A stretch of 44,461 nt of DNA from a bacterium (GCA_002919195.1 PKEU01000153.1:1-44461); one strand, 5' to 3'. Numbered from the stretch's first letter, positions 6,806 through 32,045 are shown. Made by a program: numbers and translations. The notes: generated by a model from the letters alone, not told the origin.

Positions 6806-6834
6806 ATGTTACAAGAGGGGTTTTCCTTTGTCAA
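6806..6834 (-). promoter_or_regulatory. Sigma-A type promoter of alaS
   Basis: TTGACA (6834-6829), 17-bp spacer, TAACAT (6811-6806). Confidence 0.65.
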
Positions 6835-6939
6835 CCAAACGCCCCGCGCGTGTGAACCAAGTAGCGGCGGGTCAATTTCGCGCGCCTAACCTCACTTGGC
6901 ATCACACCTCCCTTGCGGTGACACCGCCTTGCCAGATCT

Positions 6940-6978
6940 AAGTTGGTATACCTCTTTCGCATGACTCTATACCAACTT
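6940..6978. promoter_or_regulatory. Operator-like inverted repeat upstream of the GntR/LacI-type regulator
   Basis: AAGTTGGTATA-N17-TATACCAACTT, perfect 11-bp arms. Confidence 0.7.
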
Positions 6979-7052
6979 TTTGGATCGACCAGGCAAAGTA
7001 ACAAAGGAAAACGCTGCCGCTCGCTGTAGAACTAGGTACTTGGACACACCCA

Positions 7053-7087
7053 GCTTTATACCAGGTTGCATCGAGTTGATATACGAG
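7053..7087. promoter_or_regulatory. Second pair of operator-like sites in the regulator leader
   Basis: TTTATACCAGG and TTGATATACGAG resemble the TTGGTATACCAA half-sites at 6940-6978; they abut the RBS. Confidence 0.45.
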
Positions 7088-7098
7088 GTAGGCTGCCA

Positions 7099-8208
7099 GT
7101 GAGTCACAAGGCACCTTTGTACCAACAGCTCAAAGAATCGATCATTGAACAGATCCGCCGCGGCGAGCTTCAACCGGGGGACCGGGTGCCGTCCGAGAAC
7201 GAGCTGGCCCGGCGCGCCAGCGTAAGCCGCATGACGACGAAGCAGGCCCTTACGGAACTCGCCAGAGACGGCTGGGTGTACCGCATCCGGGGCAAAGGGA
7301 CCTTTGTCGCGTCCGCCCTGCCGACCAGCGAGCGCAAGCTCCCCCGTGCGGTTGGGATCTTCGTTCCCCATCTCAACAACCCATACGCAACGCGCATCAT
7401 CCTAGGGGTCGAAGCTGAGCTCGCCAAGGAAGGGTATCATTTGATCTTCCGGAGCGGCGGCACGCCCCAAGCGGAGGTCGCCTCCGTGCGAGATCTCCTG
7501 GATGCAGGGATCGCGGGGCTCATCGTATGGCCGGCACCGGGCGAGTACATCAATCAAGAGCTTGTCCGGCTGCGCCTCGCTCATTTTCCTATCGTCCTGG
7601 TCGACCGGTATCTCCGGGGCCTCCAGGTCGACTGTGCCCAGTCTGACAACTTGCGCGGCGGCTACATCGCTACGAAACACCTCCTCGACCTCGGGCACCG
7701 CCACATCGCTTATGCTGCCCGTTTCTTCAGCAACGTCACATCAGTGGAGGAGCGCCACCTCGGCTACCAGGCCGCGCTCCGAGAAGCCGGAATCCAACCC
7801 CAAGACCAGTATGTCTGGGTGATTCCCGTCGTCGTCGACTGGACCGAGTGGCTCAAAGACCACCTCACCCGCTACCCGGAAGTGACCGCGATCTTTTGCG
7901 AAAACGACTCCATCGCCGTTGAGCTGATCTCATCGGCTGCGATCCTAGGCATCCGGGTGCCGGAAGATCTCTCCGTTGTCGGTTTTGACGATGCCGACCG
8001 GATGGACCAGGCGCAAGTCCCGCTCACCACGGTCCGCCAGGACGCCGCCGGGCTGGGCAAGACGGCCGCCCGGCTTCTCATCGAGCGCATCCAACGTGCG
8101 GAGCGGGGAGATGCGGGTTCGCCCGACGGAATTCGCCAAGTGCTCTTGCCGGTGGAGCTCGTAAGGCGCGCATCCACCGCTTCACCTACACAGTCGAAGG
8201 CGAGGTGA
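7099..8208 (+). CDS. GntR-HTH / LacI-type periplasmic-binding transcriptional regulator (AraR-like architecture)
   Basis: N-terminal GntR HTH (PLYQQLKESIIEQIRRGELQPGDRVPSENELARRASVSRMTTKQALTELARDGWVYRIRGKGTFV) plus LacI-type effector domain (GFDDADRMDQAQVPLTTVRQD). GTG at 7099 with GAGGT upstream is preferred over TTG at 7066. Confidence 0.93.
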   Translation: MSHKAPLYQQLKESIIEQIRRGELQPGDRVPSENELARRASVSRMTTKQALTELARDGWVYRIRGKGTFVASALPTSERKLPRAVGIFVPHLNNPYATRIILGVEAELAKEGYHLIFRSGGTPQAEVASVRDLLDAGIAGLIVWPAPGEYINQELVRLRLAHFPIVLVDRYLRGLQVDCAQSDNLRGGYIATKHLLDLGHRHIAYAARFFSNVTSVEERHLGYQAALREAGIQPQDQYVWVIPVVVDWTEWLKDHLTRYPEVTAIFCENDSIAVELISSAAILGIRVPEDLSVVGFDDADRMDQAQVPLTTVRQDAAGLGKTAARLLIERIQRAERGDAGSPDGIRQVLLPVELVRRASTASPTQSKAR

Positions 8209-8368
8209 TGGCCTGCCGGAGCGCCTATCGGAGGGCCGCCGGCTCGCAGAACGTGGTCTCGAAGCGCCGGCGCGCTTGAGGGCGCGATCTTTGGGCGTCA
8301 AAAGTTTTCGTAACCGTCGAGAGTATTTTGATCGTCCCGATACGACCAGCTACGGGAGGCGCAAGACG

Positions 8369-10471
8369 ATGAGACGCTCGACCTTTTGGGCGATGGCATG
8401 CGTGTTCGCATTGGCGATGGCTTTCCCGCCGGCGATCGGACTTCAGGGGACGATCGCGCCGCGTGTTGGACCCGCAGCGGCCTTGGGGGCGCCCATCGCC
8501 TCAGCCAGCGGAAACATCTTCTGGGGAAGTGATCAAATGCTTCCGACGTTTCCAGAGGTACAGCAGTTAGATGTCGCCGACGTCGCGGGCGCACCGGGCG
8601 ACGTGAAACTCCTCATGGCAACCCTACAGGGAATCGTCAACCGCACACAGCCCCGCATCTACCTGATTGAGGACGCGGGAGGCGAGGGCAAGTATACATG
8701 GCTCCAATACCTGGGCGTCCCCTACACCTTGCTGGGCTACTTCGACGTCTTGCAAAAGTACCGGAGTGAAGTGACGGGGATCATTATCTACGACCCCGAT
8801 GTGCCCGACACCATCAACGCCGCGACGACACTCGCGGGCCTGCGGGACGCCATCGTCGCAAGCCCGGGTTTGGCAGAAATTCTGCAGGAGGAGCCCTACT
8901 CGCTGCCCGTCGTCGAAGACCTGCGGGGCCGCTTCCGGGACAAGTATGAGGTCTACAGCTGGCAGTACGAAAACCTCTGGCCCAAGACCACCCACCGCAT
9001 GTTGATCGGCCTCAGCCCGGGTCGCACGGTCAGCTTGCCTCCGTCCCAACAAGTCCGCTTCACGACCGTCCTGGTCGAAACGACCCAAGAGCGCGGCGCG
9101 GCCAATCGGCGCGAGTACGAAATCGACCTCACGCCGTTTCTGGGCGGCGATGCCGTTTACATCCGCTTTGAGGACAACTTTCCCGAGGACGGTTGGGGCC
9201 CATCCGTCCACCGGGTGGTCGTCGAAGCCGACGGGGAAGTGATCGTCGACTTCATCGCGCACTCGCCCGGCGAGCAGCCGTACCTCTTTGAAGACGGCCG
9301 CTCACAAAGCTCGTGGGGATTTGACGGTCACCGTTACGCCGACAACGACCGCTACTTCATCTATGAAATCGTCCCGCCGGAGGGCACACAGCGCCTCGTC
9401 GCCCGCATCGATATGTGGAACCAGTTCAAGGTCTCGGTTACCAACCAGCGGCCGAGGCCTGCGACCACGGTCGTGCCCTACGGGTACCTGCGCGACTACG
9501 CGGTCGCGAACCGGGCGATGGTCTTTTGGCTGCAGCCCAATGATCCCCGGGACCGAGAACTGTTTGAAAAAATCCTTTCCGATGTCGAACCGGGCACGCC
9601 GTATCTCGGCTGGTTCGCCGACGACGTCGCGGGCGAGTTCAGCGGCGTCGAGCTCACCTCCCGCTATGGGGTGTACGTCCTGGCGGCGGACTGGTTCAAC
9701 AACATGACGGTCTTCTCCGGCACGCGGTATCGCCCGGTGGAGCCAAAAAAGACCCAAGTGAGGCCACTTGAGAACAAGATCTACCTCACGCTGATGTTCG
9801 GCGAGGGCGACAACCTCCAATACAACCAGCACCACATGAGGGTGTTGTGGAGCGACCCGAACCGGGGCAAGGTACCGCTCAACTGGACGTCGAGCCCCCT
9901 TCTGGTCGACGCAGCGCCGGCGATTCTCAACTACTACCACGAGACGGCGACCGAAAACGACTACCTGGTCGCAGGCCCCTCCGGAGTCGGCTACTTCTAC
10001 CCCGTTGTCTGGCCCATTGAAGAGCTGCGGGAGTTCTTGAAAAAAAGCGCACCGTACCTCGAAAAGTCTGGGATGCCGGTCGTGTACGTCCTAAACCGCA
10101 TGAGCGAGATCAACGTGCGGCCAAACCGCGACATCGCGCAAGCGTATCGCGAGTACTACAATCCTCCCGGCATCTTCGTGAGCTGGGAGAACCAGTACAG
10201 CACGTACACGACGGACGGTTCCCTGCCCATCGCGACCGTGAGGGGCGTCGGCAGCCTCGAGGAAGGTCTCAACGTGGTGCGCCAGATCCGGGAGCGCTGG
10301 AGCGGCGACCGGCCGATGTTCGCGACCATCGGTCTTTTGGCCTGGAACCTCAGTCCCACGGACGCCATGATCTTGGTGCGGAGCCTAGGGCCTGAGTTTG
10401 AGGTGGTGCTGGCGGACGAATTCTTCGCCTTGCTAAGGCAGGCGATGGACCTTCCCGCCCATGAGAAGTAG
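8369..10471 (+). CDS. Secreted GxGYxYP-family protein (putative glycoside hydrolase) with internal beta-rich insertion
   Basis: Signal peptide MRRSTFWAMACVFALAMAFPPAIG; TLQGIVNRTQPRIYLIED (GxGYxYP_N-like); FGEGDNLQYNQHHMRVLW...LVAGPSGVGYFYP (GxGYxYP motif). RBS GGGAGGC. Confidence 0.85.
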   Translation: MRRSTFWAMACVFALAMAFPPAIGLQGTIAPRVGPAAALGAPIASASGNIFWGSDQMLPTFPEVQQLDVADVAGAPGDVKLLMATLQGIVNRTQPRIYLIEDAGGEGKYTWLQYLGVPYTLLGYFDVLQKYRSEVTGIIIYDPDVPDTINAATTLAGLRDAIVASPGLAEILQEEPYSLPVVEDLRGRFRDKYEVYSWQYENLWPKTTHRMLIGLSPGRTVSLPPSQQVRFTTVLVETTQERGAANRREYEIDLTPFLGGDAVYIRFEDNFPEDGWGPSVHRVVVEADGEVIVDFIAHSPGEQPYLFEDGRSQSSWGFDGHRYADNDRYFIYEIVPPEGTQRLVARIDMWNQFKVSVTNQRPRPATTVVPYGYLRDYAVANRAMVFWLQPNDPRDRELFEKILSDVEPGTPYLGWFADDVAGEFSGVELTSRYGVYVLAADWFNNMTVFSGTRYRPVEPKKTQVRPLENKIYLTLMFGEGDNLQYNQHHMRVLWSDPNRGKVPLNWTSSPLLVDAAPAILNYYHETATENDYLVAGPSGVGYFYPVVWPIEELREFLKKSAPYLEKSGMPVVYVLNRMSEINVRPNRDIAQAYREYYNPPGIFVSWENQYSTYTTDGSLPIATVRGVGSLEEGLNVVRQIRERWSGDRPMFATIGLLAWNLSPTDAMILVRSLGPEFEVVLADEFFALLRQAMDLPAHEK

Positions 10472-10652
10472 CGGCGGCTCTGGCGATGAGCGGCGACGCT
10501 CAAAGCGCTGCAGCGCCCCTACGGTGCCGCGCCTTTGCCGTGCCCGGGCGCTACCATCCCGGCGACCTTTTCCCAACGTGGGCGTTGCCGCTTGCGCCAG
10601 CCATCCATCACGCATGCTGTGGAACCACACGCTCGGGGGAGGAAGATACCGG

Positions 10653-12776
10653 ATGTTGCGAGCGCGCTCTGAACGCTGGAGGCCGGCTGTCCAAGCCTCC
10701 GTGGTGCTCGGCCTTATGCTCGCCGGCTGCCTTGTGGCCGGCCAGGAGGGTTTCTTTTCCTACGCCTCGGCCCAGGCGACCCTCCAGCCGCCCCAACTGC
10801 CTTCGGTGCCGCTATTGATCCACGACCCGTACCTCAGCGTTTGGTCTGCCTACCCGTCGCCGGTAATCGGCTGGGCCCAGCACTGGAGCGGCAAACCCCT
10901 TCCCATGAAGATCATCGTAACCGTGGACGACAGCTCGTACCTCATCTTCGGCGAAGCCGCGCTGGGCGATACGGTGGCTCCCACACGGCTTATCGACGTC
11001 ACGGCCACGACGACCCGCTACAGAGCAACAACCGGCCCGCTTGCGGTCGATCTTGAATTCGTCACTCCGAAAGATGTGCGAGATTTGGACTCCTGGGCAT
11101 TGCCCGCATCACTGCTCTACTTTACGATTCAAAGCCAGGACGGAAAGCCTCACGCCGTTGAGGTTCTCCTGCAATTCGGCCCGGCGTGGGCCCCAGTCGG
11201 AGATCCCTCACGGGCCCTTATTGCACCGTTCGGCGTAGAAACCGAAGCCGGCCCCGTCTGGGGACTTGTATTTAGCTCTCGACGCGAGGAGCCGTTTGGC
11301 GAGGCAGCCGAATGGCCCTTGTGGGGCCAGCACGTGATGATCGGCCTGCCGGAGGAGGTTGAAACCCGGGCGTCACCTGCTTGGGCAGCTTCAGTAGGCG
11401 GGATTTCCGTGGGCCAAATTGAGGCCAAGCTCGTAGCAGCCCTGTCCGAGGCTCAAGCGGTGGCTGGCTCGCCCGGCGCCTTTGGGGAGCTCCGCTGGGA
11501 TGCCGTCGTCGGCGCTGCAACACCGGCCCGGCCTGCCGTGGCGTTCCTCCGAATCACGAACCTGGACGCCATCCGGCTCGGAAGGCTCTTAAGCGACCAC
11601 AGCGCGTATCCGCCCCTGTGGAAGAGCCGCTTCGCCTCCGAGATCGAGCTCATCGGCTACCTCGCCCGGGAGCGGGAGGCGCTACGGACTTTAGCCGGGG
11701 AAGTCGACGCGAGGATCGACAAGCTTGGCGCCGCGATCGGGAACGATTATACGACCCTGCTGCGGACCGCTTACCGGCAGGTGCTGGGATCCTATTCCGT
11801 CGTGTACGATCCGCAAGACGGCGCGCCCCTTCTTATCAACAAGGAGATCAGCAGCGGCGGGTTCACCAACACGATCGACGTGCTCTACCCCGCGATGCCG
11901 TTCTTCCTTGTGCTAAATCCAAGTCTCGTCAAGCCGCAACTTGACGCCGTCTTCCGGGCGATCGACGGCTGGTATTGGTCGGCGCCGTATGCCCCGCACG
12001 ACCTCGGGCGCTTTCCTCACCTGAGCGGTCAAGCGTACGGTGCGCCCATGCCGGTCGAGGAGTCGGCGAACATGCTCCTGATGATGGCGGCGTATATCCA
12101 GGCCACTTCCGATACCGAATTCGCAGAGGCGCACTGGGACTGGCTCACGGCTTGGTACGAGTACCTTGCAGAAAACGGTCTCGATCCTGTGGAGCAGATC
12201 TTTACCGACGATTTCACGGGACCGGTGGCCCGCAACGCGCATCTTGCGCTCAAAGCCGTGATCGCAGTAGGCGGCTTCGCTCAAATGGCCGACGCGGCGG
12301 GCAAAGCGGAAGTGGCGGCCGCCGCGCGGCGCCGATATTCCGAGATGGCCGAGCAGTGGAGAGCGATGGCCTGGACGGGCGACCACATCGTCCGCGTGTA
12401 CGATGACCACTCAAGCTGGGCAATCCCCTACAATGCAATGCTCGGCCGCCTGCTCGGGCTCGACGTTATCCCGGACGACATGTGGGAACGGGAGTTCGCC
12501 TTCTTGATGAATCAGCGGCGCCGGTACGGCATTCCCTTGGAGAACCGCTTCTCCTATACGAAAGCGGACTGGCTGCTTTGGATCGCCGCCATCGCGCCCA
12601 CGCCCGAAGACCGGGATCTGATCATCAACGACGTCGTATCGATGCTGACCCGCACGCCCGACCGGGTGCCGTTCACGGACTGGTACGATACGCTCTCGGC
12701 CCGCACTCAGGGCTTCCGAGCTCGCCCGGTCGTGGGTGGGGTGTATGCACCGTCATTATTTGTTGGGAAAAGGTGA
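10653..12776 (+). CDS. DUF5127/DUF4965/DUF1793 (GtaA-like) secreted protein, probable lipoprotein
   Basis: LLIHDPYLSVWSAYP...HWSGKPLPMKIIVTVDD; GGFTNTIDVLYPAMPFFLVLNPSLVKPQL; MPVEESANMLLMMAAY; IFTDDFTGPVARNAHLALKAVIAVGGFA; FTDWYDTLSARTQGFRARPVVGGVYAPSL. Lipobox LAGC; RBS GGGGGAGGAAG before ATG 10653. Confidence 0.88.
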   Translation: MLRARSERWRPAVQASVVLGLMLAGCLVAGQEGFFSYASAQATLQPPQLPSVPLLIHDPYLSVWSAYPSPVIGWAQHWSGKPLPMKIIVTVDDSSYLIFGEAALGDTVAPTRLIDVTATTTRYRATTGPLAVDLEFVTPKDVRDLDSWALPASLLYFTIQSQDGKPHAVEVLLQFGPAWAPVGDPSRALIAPFGVETEAGPVWGLVFSSRREEPFGEAAEWPLWGQHVMIGLPEEVETRASPAWAASVGGISVGQIEAKLVAALSEAQAVAGSPGAFGELRWDAVVGAATPARPAVAFLRITNLDAIRLGRLLSDHSAYPPLWKSRFASEIELIGYLAREREALRTLAGEVDARIDKLGAAIGNDYTTLLRTAYRQVLGSYSVVYDPQDGAPLLINKEISSGGFTNTIDVLYPAMPFFLVLNPSLVKPQLDAVFRAIDGWYWSAPYAPHDLGRFPHLSGQAYGAPMPVEESANMLLMMAAYIQATSDTEFAEAHWDWLTAWYEYLAENGLDPVEQIFTDDFTGPVARNAHLALKAVIAVGGFAQMADAAGKAEVAAAARRRYSEMAEQWRAMAWTGDHIVRVYDDHSSWAIPYNAMLGRLLGLDVIPDDMWEREFAFLMNQRRRYGIPLENRFSYTKADWLLWIAAIAPTPEDRDLIINDVVSMLTRTPDRVPFTDWYDTLSARTQGFRARPVVGGVYAPSLFVGKR

Positions 12777-12947
12777 GTTTCCTAACGTGAAGACTGTGGT
12801 GAGGCGGGAGGTGATCGCCACAGAACGGGATCGCATCGCGTCGACGTACCCTGGACGAAGCAGAGTGTTGGAAGATCGTGCGCATCAAGGACCGGGTGAC
12901 TGTCAACCCCTTTTCAAAGACGAGAACCCAAGAAAGGAGCAAGCTCA

Positions 12948-14240
12948 ATGTCGGTAACGAACATGGCAACACAATTGGTTCTCTGCCGGCATCACGCCGC
13001 CAAGCGTTTGCGGGTTTTGGCCGTCCTCCTTGCGGCCTTGTTGATCCCGAACCTCGCGTTTGCAGAGACCACCATCACGGTGTGGCACTTCTTTGGCGGG
13101 GGTGTGGAGCTCGAAACGTTCCTTACACTCGCCGATCGCTTCATGAAAGAGCACCCGGACATCCAAGTCGAGACCGTCGCCGTTCCCTGGGGCGATCCGT
13201 ACTACGAAAAACTTTCGGTCGCCGTTGTCGCCAACAGTGCCCCCGACGTCGCCCTCATGCACGCTACCAAGATCGCTGAGTTTATCGAAGGTGAATTCTT
13301 GCGGGAACTCACACCCGACGAGCTGAACGCCGCAGGCATCTACGCCGAGGACTACTTCCCTGTCCCCTGGCAGGCCTCCACGTATGACGGCAAGGTCTAC
13401 GCCATTCCCTTCGACATTCACCCGATCGGGCTCTACATCAACCGGCAGCTTCTTGAGGAAGCCGGCGTCGCTCCCACGCCCCCCGCGACCGGCGAAGAGC
13501 TGTTGGAAACTGCCCGGTTCTTAAACCGCGATCAGGATGGCGATGGCATGCTTGACGTCGCCGGCTTCGGCATCCGGGACGACGGGTACACGTTTTACCG
13601 GATGTGGTACTCGATTGTGCACCAGTTTGGCCTCGAGATTCTTGATGAGGCGAGAACCGGGCTGAATCCGGATCCCCGCCTGGTCGAAGCCTTTGACACC
13701 CTAGTCGACGCGAAAAATCTTGGCGCCTTGACCGTCGGAGGAGTAGGCGCGGACTTCATCGGGGGAAATGTCGCCTTCTTCGTCGAGGGAACGTGGGTGA
13801 TCGGCGATTACAACCGGTACGGGCTCAACTACACGGCCGCGCCTTTCCCCGTCTTCGGCGAGCGGCCCGCGACGTGGACGGATTCGCATTTGTTTGTGCT
13901 GCCTTACCAGGCCCATCCGGATGAGGAACGCCTCGAAGCCAGCAAGACGTTCGTCAAATGGATGAGCCACAACAACGGCATTTGGTCGGCCGCAGCAGGA
14001 CATGTCTCCCCGAGCCGCCAGGTGCTACAGACGGCGGAATTCCAGGCGCTGGAGCCACAGATGGCGTTCGCGCGCCAGCTGGATTATGTCGTCTTTTTCC
14101 CCCAGGTGCGCGGCGCTTGGACCTTGCAAGGGTCGCTTGCCGCAAACCTGCACCGGATCATGTCCGGCGACGTGACGAATCTGCAGGGCTTTGAAAACAT
14201 CAAGACGGAGTTTGCCAATGTCTTGACGCAGGCCCAGTAA
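12948..14240 (+). CDS. ABC transporter extracellular sugar-binding protein (family 1)
   Basis: Signal peptide ending AFA|ET, TITVWHFFGGGVELETFLTLADRFMKEHPDIQVE..., AAGHVSPSRQVL; AGGAG RBS. Confidence 0.92.
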   Translation: MSVTNMATQLVLCRHHAAKRLRVLAVLLAALLIPNLAFAETTITVWHFFGGGVELETFLTLADRFMKEHPDIQVETVAVPWGDPYYEKLSVAVVANSAPDVALMHATKIAEFIEGEFLRELTPDELNAAGIYAEDYFPVPWQASTYDGKVYAIPFDIHPIGLYINRQLLEEAGVAPTPPATGEELLETARFLNRDQDGDGMLDVAGFGIRDDGYTFYRMWYSIVHQFGLEILDEARTGLNPDPRLVEAFDTLVDAKNLGALTVGGVGADFIGGNVAFFVEGTWVIGDYNRYGLNYTAAPFPVFGERPATWTDSHLFVLPYQAHPDEERLEASKTFVKWMSHNNGIWSAAAGHVSPSRQVLQTAEFQALEPQMAFARQLDYVVFFPQVRGAWTLQGSLAANLHRIMSGDVTNLQGFENIKTEFANVLTQAQ

Positions 14241-14280
14241 GAACACGATAGAACATGCGACAGCGAGTACCGTTGCAGGC

Positions 14281-14310
14281 ACTAGAGCCGGCCGTATTGC
14301 CGGCTCTAGT
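14281..14310 (+). terminator. Intrinsic terminator closing the accessory cassette
   Basis: Perfect 12-bp inverted repeat actagagccggc-cgtatt-gccggctctagt followed by gttttagtgttt. Confidence 0.8.
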
Positions 14311-14416
14311 GTTTTAGTGTTTCCTTAATTACCGCTTGAGGAGCCAGCCGTCACAAGGGAGGCCGCCGAGCCCGGCGACCCGGAGGACAGCCTCCGCCGC
14401 CCCCACCTGAGGGACT

Positions 14417-19128: not shown

Positions 19129-19157
19129 ATGATAACACGGTGAACCCATTGTGTCAA
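19129..19157 (-). promoter_or_regulatory. Sigma-A type promoter of the Rrf2 regulator gene
   Basis: TTGACA (19157-19152), 17-bp spacer, TATCAT (19134-19129). Confidence 0.75.
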
Positions 19158-20485
19158 CGCTCTTGGCTTCCCAAACCTTCTCTCAACGCTTGGAGCCGGT
19201 CGCGGATCACTCGCTCGTAGCCCCGGTCCACCGGATGGTAAAAGCTGACCGGTCCGACCCCATCGGGGAGGTACTGTTGGGGGACATAGCCTCCCGGGTA
19301 GTCGTGGGGGTAGAGGTACCCGACCCCGTGACCGAGCTCAGAGGCCCCCCGGTAGCTCGCATCCCTCAGGTGCCTTGGCACCTCTCCCCCGCCTTGAGCG
19401 CGCACCGCCTCCTTGGCGGCGGCCAGCGCCTTGTACGTCGCGTTGCTCTTAGGGGCGGTGGCAATGTAAAGAGCGGCCTGAGCCAACGCCAGTTCCGCTT
19501 CGGGCAGCCCCACCCACTCCAAAGCGGTGGCCGCCGCGGCTGCGACCACCAGCGCTTGAGGGTCAGCGTTTCCCACGTCCTCGCTCGCGTGGATCAGGAT
19601 CCTCCTGGCGATAAACCGGGGATCTTCACCGCTTTCCAGCATCCTGGCGAGCCAATACAGGGTGGCGTCGGGATCGCTCCCCCTCATGCTCTTGATGAAG
19701 GCCGAGATCACGTCGTAGTGGTTGTCCCCGCTCTTGTCATAGCGCAGGAACTTGCGCGCGGTCGCCTCTTCGGCCAGCGCTAGCGTGATCGTTCGGTCCT
19801 CGCGATCTTTGGCCCCCAAAGCCGCGAGCTCCAGGTTATTGAGCGCCACCCGGGCGTCTCCATTGGCCGTCCGGACCAGGTGCTCCTCGGCCTCCGTCTC
19901 GATCGTCAACTCCCACGCACCGAGCCCCCGCTCCCGGTCGGTCAGGGCACGGCGGACAAGGCGCGCGATCTCGTGATCCTCGAGGGGTTCAAAGCGCACG
20001 ACCCGCGCCCTGGAAAGGAGCGGCGCGTTGACTTCAAAATACGGGTTTTCAGTGGTCGCGCCGATCAGCGTGATGGTGCCGTCCTCCACCGCGGGCAAAA
20101 GGGCGTCCTGCTGGCTCTTGTTAAACCGGTGGATCTCGTCAATAAAGACGATGCTTCTCTTGCCGTAAAGGGCGCGGCGATCTTTCGCCTCCTGGATCAC
20201 CTTGCGAATCTCCGTGACGCCTGAGGTGACAGCGTTGAGCTGCTCGAAGTGCGAGCGGGTGGAGTCGGCGATGAGGCGGGCCAGCGTGGTCTTCCCCGTG
20301 CCCGGCGGCCCGTAGAGGATCAGCGACACCAGCCGGTCGCTTAAGATCATCTGCCGGAGCAAAGTGCCAGGCCCCACGACCCTTTCTTGTCCGACAAACT
20401 CGTCCAACGAGCGCGGGCGCATCCGCACCGCCAAAGGCGCTTTCGCCAAAGCCTCCGCCTTGCTGGCCGCTTCAAAGAGGTCCAT
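19154..20485 (-). CDS. rarA: Replication-associated recombination protein A (RarA/MgsA AAA ATPase)
   Basis: [77 protein letters not shown] at 20485 with GGGAGG upstream (track ORF start 20662 conflicts with the ncRNA). Confidence 0.95.
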
Positions 20486-20566
20486 GGAAGACGCCTCCCA
20501 TCTCAAAAATAGCCCAAATGCCCGCGCGCAAAAGCCCGCCGCGACCGGCGCTCCCACGGCGGAAGA

Positions 20567-20785
20567 CAAAAAGAAACCCCCGCCATGCCGCTGGTGCTGA
20601 CCCGTTAATGAACCTGCTCTCCAGCAGGTGGGTGCCCTCCTGCCCGTCAGCGACGTCCCCAACTGGCGTGGGGCATGTGCATCGGGGACAGAGACCAGGC
20701 TCCCTCGTGTAAGGGTGTTGGCTCATAACAAAGGCCAGCTTGACCACGCACACAGCAGGGAAAACTGATGGCGTCCCTTTGGCAT
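20567..20785 (-). ncRNA. ssrS: Probable 6S RNA (ssrS/bsrA-type)
   Basis: In the aspS-rarA gap. Minus-strand GGGCACCCACCUGCUGGAGAGCAGGUUCAUUAACGGGUCAGC: 3' hairpin ACCUGCU-GGAG-AGCAGGU and closing stem GCUGGCC/GGUCAGC plus GUUAUGA/UCAUUAAC; GUCCCC...GGGGAC apical stem; extended CGCCAU/AUGGCG; U-rich end GUUUCUUUUUG; promoter TTGCCC-N18-TATTAT just upstream. Ends approximate. Confidence 0.75.
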
Positions 20786-23983: not shown

Positions 23984-25540
23984 TTACTCCTGTGGCTCGG
24001 TCGCCCCTTGGACCTCGTCGAGCTGGGACGGATCTTCAGCTTCAAGCTCGGGCGCCTCAAGGCCCGCGGCGGAGTCTTCGTCCCGGCGAAGCCCCTCTTC
24101 GATCATCCGCTCCAGCTCCTGCTGCCGCTGCAAGGCCTCCTGCTGGCGTAGAAACTCCTCGATCATCTGTTGCTGCAGCTCGTCGACTTTCTGCTCCTCT
24201 TGGGCCGCAAGCTCGTCATACCCGATCGCGCGAAACGCGGAAGCCAAGATCTGGTGGAGCTGCATGTTGGAAGGCGAAAGCTCCGATGCGTTGATATAAG
24301 CATCCTTGGCCTCTTCATACTGGCCTCGCTCCTGGTAGGCCGAGCCCAAAGCAAACCAGAGGAAGGGATCGGTCGCAGCCGTATTCGCCGCCTCCGCGTA
24401 GGCTGCCAGCGCCTCGTCGTCCGCTCCGACTCTCTCCAGCAGGAGAGCCAGCCGGTAGTGGAGGTATCCGTCAAAGGGGTTGGCGGCGATGGCTTCGCGG
24501 TACTGGGCGATGGCCTGGTCGAGAAGGCCCGCTTGCGCGAGCTGGTGCGCCCTCAGCTGCGGGTCGTTGATCGTGATCTCCGCCTTGGCCCGCTCGGCCT
24601 GGAGCCATTGGTTAAACTGAGCGAGGCCCCGCTCCCGCTCCAGCCGGGCGCGCAGGGATGCCTCCACCTCTTCAAACGGCTGCTCAGGCTCGTCAAATCG
24701 ACGGTCAGTCACCTGAATGATATGGTATCCGTAGGGGCTCCGGACCGGCTCGCTAATCTCCCCTACTTCGAGCGCGAAAGCCGCCTCCAAAAACTCTGTG
24801 ACGAAAGGATGGTTCCGGCGGACGTAGCCGAGGCTGCCGCCCAGGTCTTTTGAGCCAGGGTCAGCGGAATAAAGGGCCGCGAGCTCCGCGAAATCCTCGC
24901 CGGCCTCAAGGCGCGCGAGGATCTCCTCGGCCTTTTGCTGCGCGGCATCCCAATCGCCGCCCAACTCCTCCTCCCACGGATCGATGAGGATGTGGCGCAC
25001 CTCGATCTCTTCCCGCTCGCGGTCAAAGGCTTCCCGCACCTCTTCGTCGGTGACGACCACCTTCGACTTCTCCTCTCGCACCTTTTGCAAGAGGAGGTTT
25101 TCGCGGATCAGCTCCCGGAGCGATGCGTGATTGAGCCCTTGCATCCGCAAGACGGTGTTAAATTGATCGCCGTACGCCTCCCGCAGGGCGTCAAACTCCT
25201 GATTGACGAGGCTGTTGTCGACGCGGATACGCTCTTTTTTCGCGGCCTGGAGCATCAGCCGCTGGTCGACCAGCTCCTGCAAGGCGGCGAAACGCAGCTC
25301 CTCTTCTTGGGCCCGAGCCACCGGTTGGCCCATCTGAGCGGCGAAGCTCGCGATGGCGGCGTAGGCCCGGTCCAGCTCCAGGGCGGAGATGCTCTCCCCG
25401 TTGACCCTGGCGACCGCCGGCACCGACGCATCTGGGTTAAAGAAAGTGTCGCCGCCCACGTAGAGCAGCGTCAGGGCGAAGGCGACGCAGACGACAACGA
25501 TGATCACCTTCATTTGCTTGCGGAGCTTGTCGAAAAACAC
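23984..25540 (-). CDS. Membrane-anchored SurA/PpiD-like peptidyl-prolyl isomerase (PPIC) with C-terminal TPR repeats
   Basis: N-terminal TM (MKVIIVVVCVAFALTLLYVGG), parvulin core EVRHILIDPWEEE...FAELAALYSADPGSKDLGGSLGYVRRNHPFVTEFLEAAFALEVGEISEPVRSPYGYHIIQV, TPRs (GYLHYRLALLLERVGADDEALAAYAEAANTAATDPFLWFALGSAYQERGQYEEAKDAY). GTG at 25540, AGGGG RBS. Confidence 0.88.
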   Translation of the reverse strand: MFFDKLRKQMKVIIVVVCVAFALTLLYVGGDTFFNPDASVPAVARVNGESISALELDRAYAAIASFAAQMGQPVARAQEEELRFAALQELVDQRLMLQAAKKERIRVDNSLVNQEFDALREAYGDQFNTVLRMQGLNHASLRELIRENLLLQKVREEKSKVVVTDEEVREAFDREREEIEVRHILIDPWEEELGGDWDAAQQKAEEILARLEAGEDFAELAALYSADPGSKDLGGSLGYVRRNHPFVTEFLEAAFALEVGEISEPVRSPYGYHIIQVTDRRFDEPEQPFEEVEASLRARLERERGLAQFNQWLQAERAKAEITINDPQLRAHQLAQAGLLDQAIAQYREAIAANPFDGYLHYRLALLLERVGADDEALAAYAEAANTAATDPFLWFALGSAYQERGQYEEAKDAYINASELSPSNMQLHQILASAFRAIGYDELAAQEEQKVDELQQQMIEEFLRQQEALQRQQELERMIEEGLRRDEDSAAGLEAPELEAEDPSQLDEVQGATEPQE

Positions 25541-25587
25541 AGGTCCATCGCCCCTTCGAAACGACGTACATAAGAAAATACGTACAC

Positions 25588-25615
25588 AAAAAAAGAGGGC
25601 CTGTCCACCCTCTTT
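25588..25615 (-). terminator. Intrinsic terminator located between a promoter and the PPIase-TPR start codon (candidate attenuator)
   Basis: AAAGAGGG-TGGACAGG-CCCTCTTT followed by TTTT (7 T in all) on the minus strand. Confidence 0.8.
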
Positions 25616-25636
25616 GCCCACGCGAGGGCATAAAAT

Positions 25637-25666
25637 ATTGTACCTGAAGAGCAAAAAGAGTGTCAA
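25637..25666 (-). promoter_or_regulatory. Sigma-A type promoter overlapping the dtd stop region
   Basis: TTGACA (25666-25661), 18-bp spacer, TACAAT (25642-25637). Confidence 0.75.
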
Positions 25667-31589: not shown

Positions 31590-32045
31590 CTATTCGGGCC
31601 AAGAAGGATCCCGAGACCGTTCCTTTTCGGTCCCCAGCGCCTCGCCGTCCTCGAGCGGTTCGCCGGTCTCCAGGGCTTCAACCGGCGCCTCTTCGCCTTC
31701 TTCGCCCGTCCCTTTTTGCTGCTCTTTAGCCAACGCCGCTTCTTTGGCCTGCTCCAACTGGGCAACCAGCGCGCTTTTGGCCGTCCGCTCTTCTTCGAGT
31801 TCACGCTGGATCCGGTCGAGTTCGGCTCGGAGGTGCCGAGCGCGCAGGCCCATACTGACTTGCCGGAACACCCCGGCAAGGATGGCCGTGAGCGCGCCCA
31901 CCATCGCCGCCCCCAACGCGATCACCGCTACCGAGGTCTCCCGCTGCCAGCCGAAAAACCGGATTGGCACCGTTTGCGCGTTTTGCAAGGCAAAGACCGC
32001 AACCACGCTGGCAAAGATCAGCGCCGCCACCAACAGAAGCTGCAT
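31590..32045 (-). CDS. LapA domain (DUF1049) membrane protein
   Basis: FALQNAQTVPIRFFGWQRETSVAVIALGAAMVGALTAILAG, then coiled coil and acidic tail. Confidence 0.85.
   Translation of the reverse strand: MQLLLVAALIFASVVAVFALQNAQTVPIRFFGWQRETSVAVIALGAAMVGALTAILAGVFRQVSMGLRARHLRAELDRIQRELEEERTAKSALVAQLEQAKEAALAKEQQKGTGEEGEEAPVEALETGEPLEDGEALGTEKERSRDPSWPE

Follow-up and report, generated by a model that had tools for sequence, protein, structure and literature searches.

What brought four carbohydrate-type genes into an otherwise conserved housekeeping neighbourhood, and what do their products do there? The question is raised by a 44,461-nucleotide stretch of bacterial DNA (GCA_002919195.1 PKEU01000153.1:1-44461; referred to as the window), which is one entire contig of the 219-contig draft genome G000. 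Here, a plus-strand cassette encoding a GntR/LacI-type regulator, a secreted GxGYxYP protein, a GtaA-type lipoprotein and a solute-binding protein (SBP) lies between the genes for an AI-2E transporter and alaS. On balance, we lean towards reading this cassette as a self-regulated glycan-trimming operon that was acquired en bloc in the AI-2E/alaS interval, with a mannose-containing glycan as its most likely substrate.

The four-gene layout was confirmed by Pfam searches. All four genes are co-directional on the plus strand: the GntR/LacI-type regulator (7099-8208; PF00392 and PF13377; longest open reading frame (ORF) 7066-8208), the secreted GxGYxYP protein (8369-10471; PF14323, PF16216, PF20957 and PF20958; longest ORF 8276-10471), the GtaA-type six-hairpin lipoprotein (10653-12776; PF16335, PF17168 and PF16334; longest ORF 10461-12776) and an SBP_bac_1 sugar-type SBP with a signal peptide (12948-14240; PF01547). 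The preferred starts GTG 7099, ATG 8369 and ATG 10653 were chosen by Shine-Dalgarno-like sequences. With the latter two, the overlap of the GxGYxYP and GtaA ORFs is apparent only, and the revised starts provide the GxGYxYP protein with a signal peptide and the GtaA-type protein with a lipobox, which reads LMLAGC. The flanking genes are on the minus strand, with alaS, IreB, RuvX and DUF1292 on one side and the AI-2E transporter, a PRC barrel protein and mnmA on the other. All gene and flank identities given in a preliminary description of this DNA were therefore confirmed. Its statement that the four genes are convergently oriented has to be corrected, since they are co-directional, diverge from alaS, and only the last gene, encoding the SBP, converges with AI-2E. 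The terminator placed there at 14281-14310 was found again as an intrinsic-terminator-like stem-loop at the cassette end (14277-14314, plus strand) with 16 pairs, 9 of them G-C, and a T-containing tail.

A functional link between the genes is indicated by the recurrent pairing of GxGYxYP with GtaA. In an even sample of 398 genomes across the phylum, GxGYxYP_C is present in three (G000, G016 and G136) and full-length GtaA in four, namely these three and G333. In 3/3 GxGYxYP genomes the GtaA gene is found on the same contig and the same strand within 5 kb; once the window genome is excluded, a hypergeometric estimate that ignores relatedness gives about 4e-5 for GtaA in two of two. The locus in G136 and the one in Paenibacillus pabuli are identical, and the family of G136, from which a second sample of 201 genomes was taken, is probably Paenibacillaceae. 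In this family sample GxGYxYP occurs in 74 genomes, strong GtaA matches in 66 and both in 60 (Fisher p=2.2e-30, shared ancestry ignored). Moreover, 40 of the 69 GtaA genes lie at most 20 kb from a GxGYxYP gene, as compared to about 1% under uniform placement. The two genes are linked at several distances and in several orientations, arguing for repeated assembly of the pair. Thus, genome-neighbourhood co-occurrence, the key test named in the preliminary description, turned out positive at the level of both phylum and family. The position of GxGYxYP genes beside mannosidase genes has already been reported, for GxGYxYP alone (PMC4071793). The linkage to GtaA was not in the papers searched, and a text search, with subscription papers outside its coverage, returned no publication that connects GxGYxYP to proteins of the GtaA type.

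The neighbours of GxGYxYP genes were surveyed within a radius of about 9 kb at 79 loci of relatives, which were drawn from the best 80 of 178 candidates and are biased to close relatives. Permease genes were found at 54 of these loci, GntR-LacI regulators at 53, SBP genes at 41, glycoside hydrolase family 38 (GH38) genes at 32, a gene for an uncharacterised protein of ~735 amino acids at 26 and GtaA at 11; the 852-amino-acid gene of locus L118 was excluded from the GtaA count as a short and weak match. Together with the co-occurrence data, the survey upholds the proposal that GtaA, GntR-LacI regulators and genes for sugar binding or transport are conserved partners of GxGYxYP. The ~735-amino-acid family (U735; e.g. 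L124:11061-13241 on the plus and L108:5191-7422 on the minus strand) lies mostly within 2.5 kb of GxGYxYP. Its members have no Pfam match at 1e-3, and a relationship to GtaA was discarded as no similarity was found.

Two loci resemble the cassette in part. In G016, which belongs to another order of the same class, the order GxGYxYP-GtaA-SBP is kept and followed by a convergent GntR-LacI gene and a GH38 alpha-mannosidase gene. Its GtaA is the closest among the relatives collected (40% identity, support 1.0) and its SBP (G016:C18) is 49.5% identical to that of the window, while its GxGYxYP protein belongs to another subfamily. In G003 (contig C115), the regulator is 58% and the GxGYxYP protein 69% identical (support 0.96); a different SBP gene stands between the two, and a GH92 gene, cut by the contig end, comes afterwards. 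The trees are thus discordant, with the window GxGYxYP grouping with G003 and the GtaA with G016, so that the cassette has a G003-like front and a G016-like back, its pairing having been kept through the exchange of parts. The Paenibacillaceae/Bacillaceae loci L136 (P. pabuli), L102, L094 and L137 likewise have GxGYxYP and GtaA clustered, many with a GntR-LacI gene. They differ from the cassette, which has neither, in carrying permeases of ATP-binding cassette (ABC) transporters and often GH38, and the window GtaA forms a separate branch with G016, apart from these loci. Apparently, they represent a more complete version of this type of locus. CRISPR-array-like repeats, translating as FNPTMVRLEL and FQSHNGSIGT, were observed beside the G016 cassette (G016:C18) at L193 8402-14001 and L052 1-800.

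The cassette is probably controlled by its own regulator. Upstream of the regulator gene, an operator-like inverted repeat with perfect 11-bp arms, AAGTTGGTATA-N17-TATACCAACTT, is located at 6940-6978; a perfect repeat of this type arises in 1/3000 shuffles. A second operator-like pair, TATACCA-N12-TTGATATA, was read directly 5' of the regulator Shine-Dalgarno sequence at 7057-7083 and is related to the first, but weaker. Similar repeats, their spacer shorter by one base, are found in front of the G003 regulator, and like-spaced TATATCAAG/CTTGATATA occur in L049. The exact 11-mer has three copies in the genome, two of them at the cassette and the third inside a coding gene, and this near confinement to the cassette fits local autoregulation. 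With up to one mismatch 28 copies were counted as compared to 22 for the reversed control; together with the position of the third exact site, this argues against a wider regulon. In the regulator the GntR DNA-binding domain (PF00392) is fused to a LacI-type effector domain (Peripla_BP_3, PF13377), and no cut-off was reached against the NCBIfam equivalogs.

Judging from domains, folds and conservation, the favoured glycan-trimming operon might work as follows. The regulator would bind the AAGTTGGTATA inverted repeats and control its own operon, a sugar bound in the LacI-type domain serving as its signal. The GxGYxYP protein, being secreted, and the lipoprotein GtaA would act on the same extracellular glycan but at different linkages, the former by cleavage via a conserved acidic site and the latter as a retaining beta-glycosidase-like six-hairpin enzyme. 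The SBP would bind the products and pass them to a permease encoded elsewhere. A mannose-containing glycan bearing other sugars is suggested as the substrate because alpha-mannosidase genes of GH38 or GH92 are found at partner loci: no enzyme gene accompanied GxGYxYP more often than GH38 in the survey, and GH92 adjoins GxGYxYP in G003 and L118. Of the undescribed glycan system in the preliminary description, the carbohydrate linkage thus stands, and the glycan is narrowed to a probably mannose-containing one by the recurrent GH38/GH92 neighbours.

Several observations weigh against this reading. No permease match was obtained on the 44.5-kb window contig, and no mannosidase gene is among the four cassette genes. 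GH38 is represented in the own genome by weak matches only, on another contig (three GH38-like genes on C17, accompanied by SBP, permease-like and LacI-type genes), and GH92 was not found in this genome. GxGYxYP proteins of mannan polysaccharide-utilisation loci (PULs) have so far shown no catalytic activity (PMC4071793), confidence in the structural model of GtaA is low (pLDDT 51.7, with the helical half modelled best), and the activity described for a Streptomyces relative of GtaA is that of a weak beta-galactosidase, not a mannosidase (PMC9668830). Finally, GH106-like rhamnosidase genes adjoin the pair in G016 and L136 and suggest other sugars. A regulated unit with a rhamnose-, arabinose- or galactose-containing target, for which the mannosidases would mark only one class of partner loci, is therefore the leading alternative, albeit one that we consider rather doubtful. 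The GH106-like genes and the beta-galactosidase activity are in line with such a target, as are the arabino-oligosaccharide-binding protein that is the best solved relative of the SBP and the 47/79 loci with no GH38 within 9 kb. On the other hand, it leaves GH38 as the commonest enzyme partner to be explained, as well as the GH92/GH38 mannosidase genes that accompany GxGYxYP also in Bacteroides and Caldithrix (Rigden et al. 2014, PMC4071793).

The GxGYxYP protein consists of a C-terminal barrel (PF14323) and three N-terminal repeat domains, all four above the Pfam cut-off, and has 3sgg as its best match in both sequence and fold. Alignment to 3sgg places the proposed acidic site at E454, E510 and D512 (longest-ORF numbering), corresponding to E272, D331 and D333 of BT2193 with one conservative change, D331 to E510. 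These residues are invariant in 13/13 subfamily members, and E454 and D512 are also kept in five more divergent GxGYxYP sequences. At about residues 250-400 a beta-sandwich module is inserted, which is common to the Paenibacillaceae subfamily and absent in G016 and BT2193-like proteins. The protein might instead be a secreted glycan-binding or structural partner without enzymatic function, leaving GtaA as the sole cutter. The weak likeness of the insert to carbohydrate-binding modules and the catalysis not found so far in mannan PULs would agree with this, but the invariance of the three acidic positions makes it unlikely. Secreted GxGYxYP proteins are also encoded in carbohydrate loci of Bacteroides (PULs with BT2193, BT2200, BT3857 and BT3859) and Caldithrix abyssi, often with GH92/GH38, and the family is strongly enriched in gut metagenomes (PMC4071793). 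Where the Bacteroides PULs have the PUL machinery, the cassette has a GntR-LacI regulator together with an ABC-type SBP; the partner of its GxGYxYP protein is GtaA, and this GxGYxYP protein has the additional beta-sandwich insert and a Glu for the first Asp of the triad. The same genome also contains what is left of another, truncated GxGYxYP gene, which adjoins an ABC-transporter-like ATPase gene (G000:C21:6517-6957, minus strand; L053).

The GtaA-type protein has the full domain set (GtaA_6_Hairpin PF16335, DUF4964 and DUF5127). A search by sequence gave no usable hit among solved structures. The leading Foldseek matches of its model are GH52 and GH116 (E about 1e-9, probability 1.00, TM-scores 0.38-0.52), in agreement with an independent HHpred result and with the labelling of a fungal member by an activity probe (PMC9668830). 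A hydrolase function of GtaA is thus supported by the modelled fold. The model shares the six-hairpin fold of GH52 beta-xylosidases and GH116 beta-glucosidases, yet identity is just 10-15% and its invariant Glu/Asp positions are only candidate catalytic residues, so that GtaA is placed in neither family. Of the two putative hydrolases in the preliminary description, this leaves GtaA, by its fold match; for GxGYxYP, the papers searched describe catalysis by no member (PMC4071793). GtaA-type proteins are secreted by biomass-degrading fungi (PMC9668830, PMC7679414), and the fungal and Streptomyces proteins (DUF4964/DUF5127/DUF4965/DUF1793) resemble that of the window in domain set, secretion and GH52/GH116-like fold (PMC9668830). 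Unlike these, the window protein is a bacterial lipoprotein, with about 33-42% identity as measured to the relatives collected here. Scavenging of glutamine or peptides by a true glutaminase, as the family name derived from fungal glutaminase A would imply, is very improbable in view of the glycosidase fold matches, the carbohydrate-type linked genes and the glutaminase activity absent in the Streptomyces relative (PMC9668830).

More boldly, GxGYxYP and GtaA-type proteins could be partner enzymes, widespread among the Firmicutes, in one undescribed degradation step of a decorated mannose-containing glycan, GxGYxYP being a new GH family whose activity was missed as GtaA is needed first or alongside. 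We regard this as a tentative proposal that may well fail. Neither family has a settled activity, and their repeated linkage supplies a concrete partner and a substrate class, making the Firmicutes pair good candidates for joint testing. The linkage also argues that the name glutaminase A misleads the annotation of bacterial carbohydrate operons.

Gram-positive PULs combine enzymes and a regulator with a dedicated transporter. The cassette has an SBP and no permease, and is most likely a reduced, PUL-like arrangement rather than a full PUL; it does not amount to a complete scavenging system. In G000, 69 matches to the cassette SBP were found, 48 of them with no permease match within 4 kb, a count that is inflated by short contigs. 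The many SBP genes with no nearby permease suggest that permease sharing would not be unusual here. Tandem SBP genes were seen on C104, C6 and C37 of G000, and orphan SBPs seem common.

That the cassette was inserted is shown by the empty site in relatives. AI-2E directly precedes alaS in G001 of the same family and G003 of the same order, and in most class relatives whose upstream sequence is long enough, 90-373 bp separate the two genes in the alignment; a few exceptions have mnmA in place of AI-2E, and one gap measures 1.2 kb. This short empty site indicates that about 7.6 kb were gained in the window lineage, in line with the insertion into a conserved neighbourhood that had been proposed. 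The alaS promoter-like site TTGACA-17-TAACAT (6806-6834, minus strand) is intact and conserved in G001 together with the leader up to about 6849, and on the opposite border homology to the G001 spacer stops at the AI-2E stop codon. According to this spacer alignment, the block (6850-14416, approximate borders) is inserted just upstream of an undamaged alaS promoter. No integrase or transposase domain was detected by Pfam in the four genes, no tRNA target was found, and comparison of the borders, where no flanking repeat had been noticed earlier, yielded, apart from an inverted match of 9 nt, no terminal repeat in common. Codon usage and the GC content at third codon positions deviate mildly from the values of the neighbouring genes and lie close to them. 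Taken together, these results argue against a mobile element. A sporadic random juxtaposition with no functional link could draw on the use of this site only in the window genome among the relatives compared and on the different closest relatives of the two halves, but is hardly credible given the gene order shared with another order and the co-occurrence and linkage counts that contradict it.

Outside the cassette, a 6S RNA gene (RF00013, 81 bits) at 20573-20764 on the minus strand overlaps the beginning of the rarA-like ORF in its longest form (19154-20662). In addition, this Firmicute genome encodes in the window a SurA-like peptidyl-prolyl isomerase with tetratricopeptide repeats (23984-25666, minus strand) and a LapA-domain protein (31590-32045, minus strand), possibly a hint about the cell envelope.

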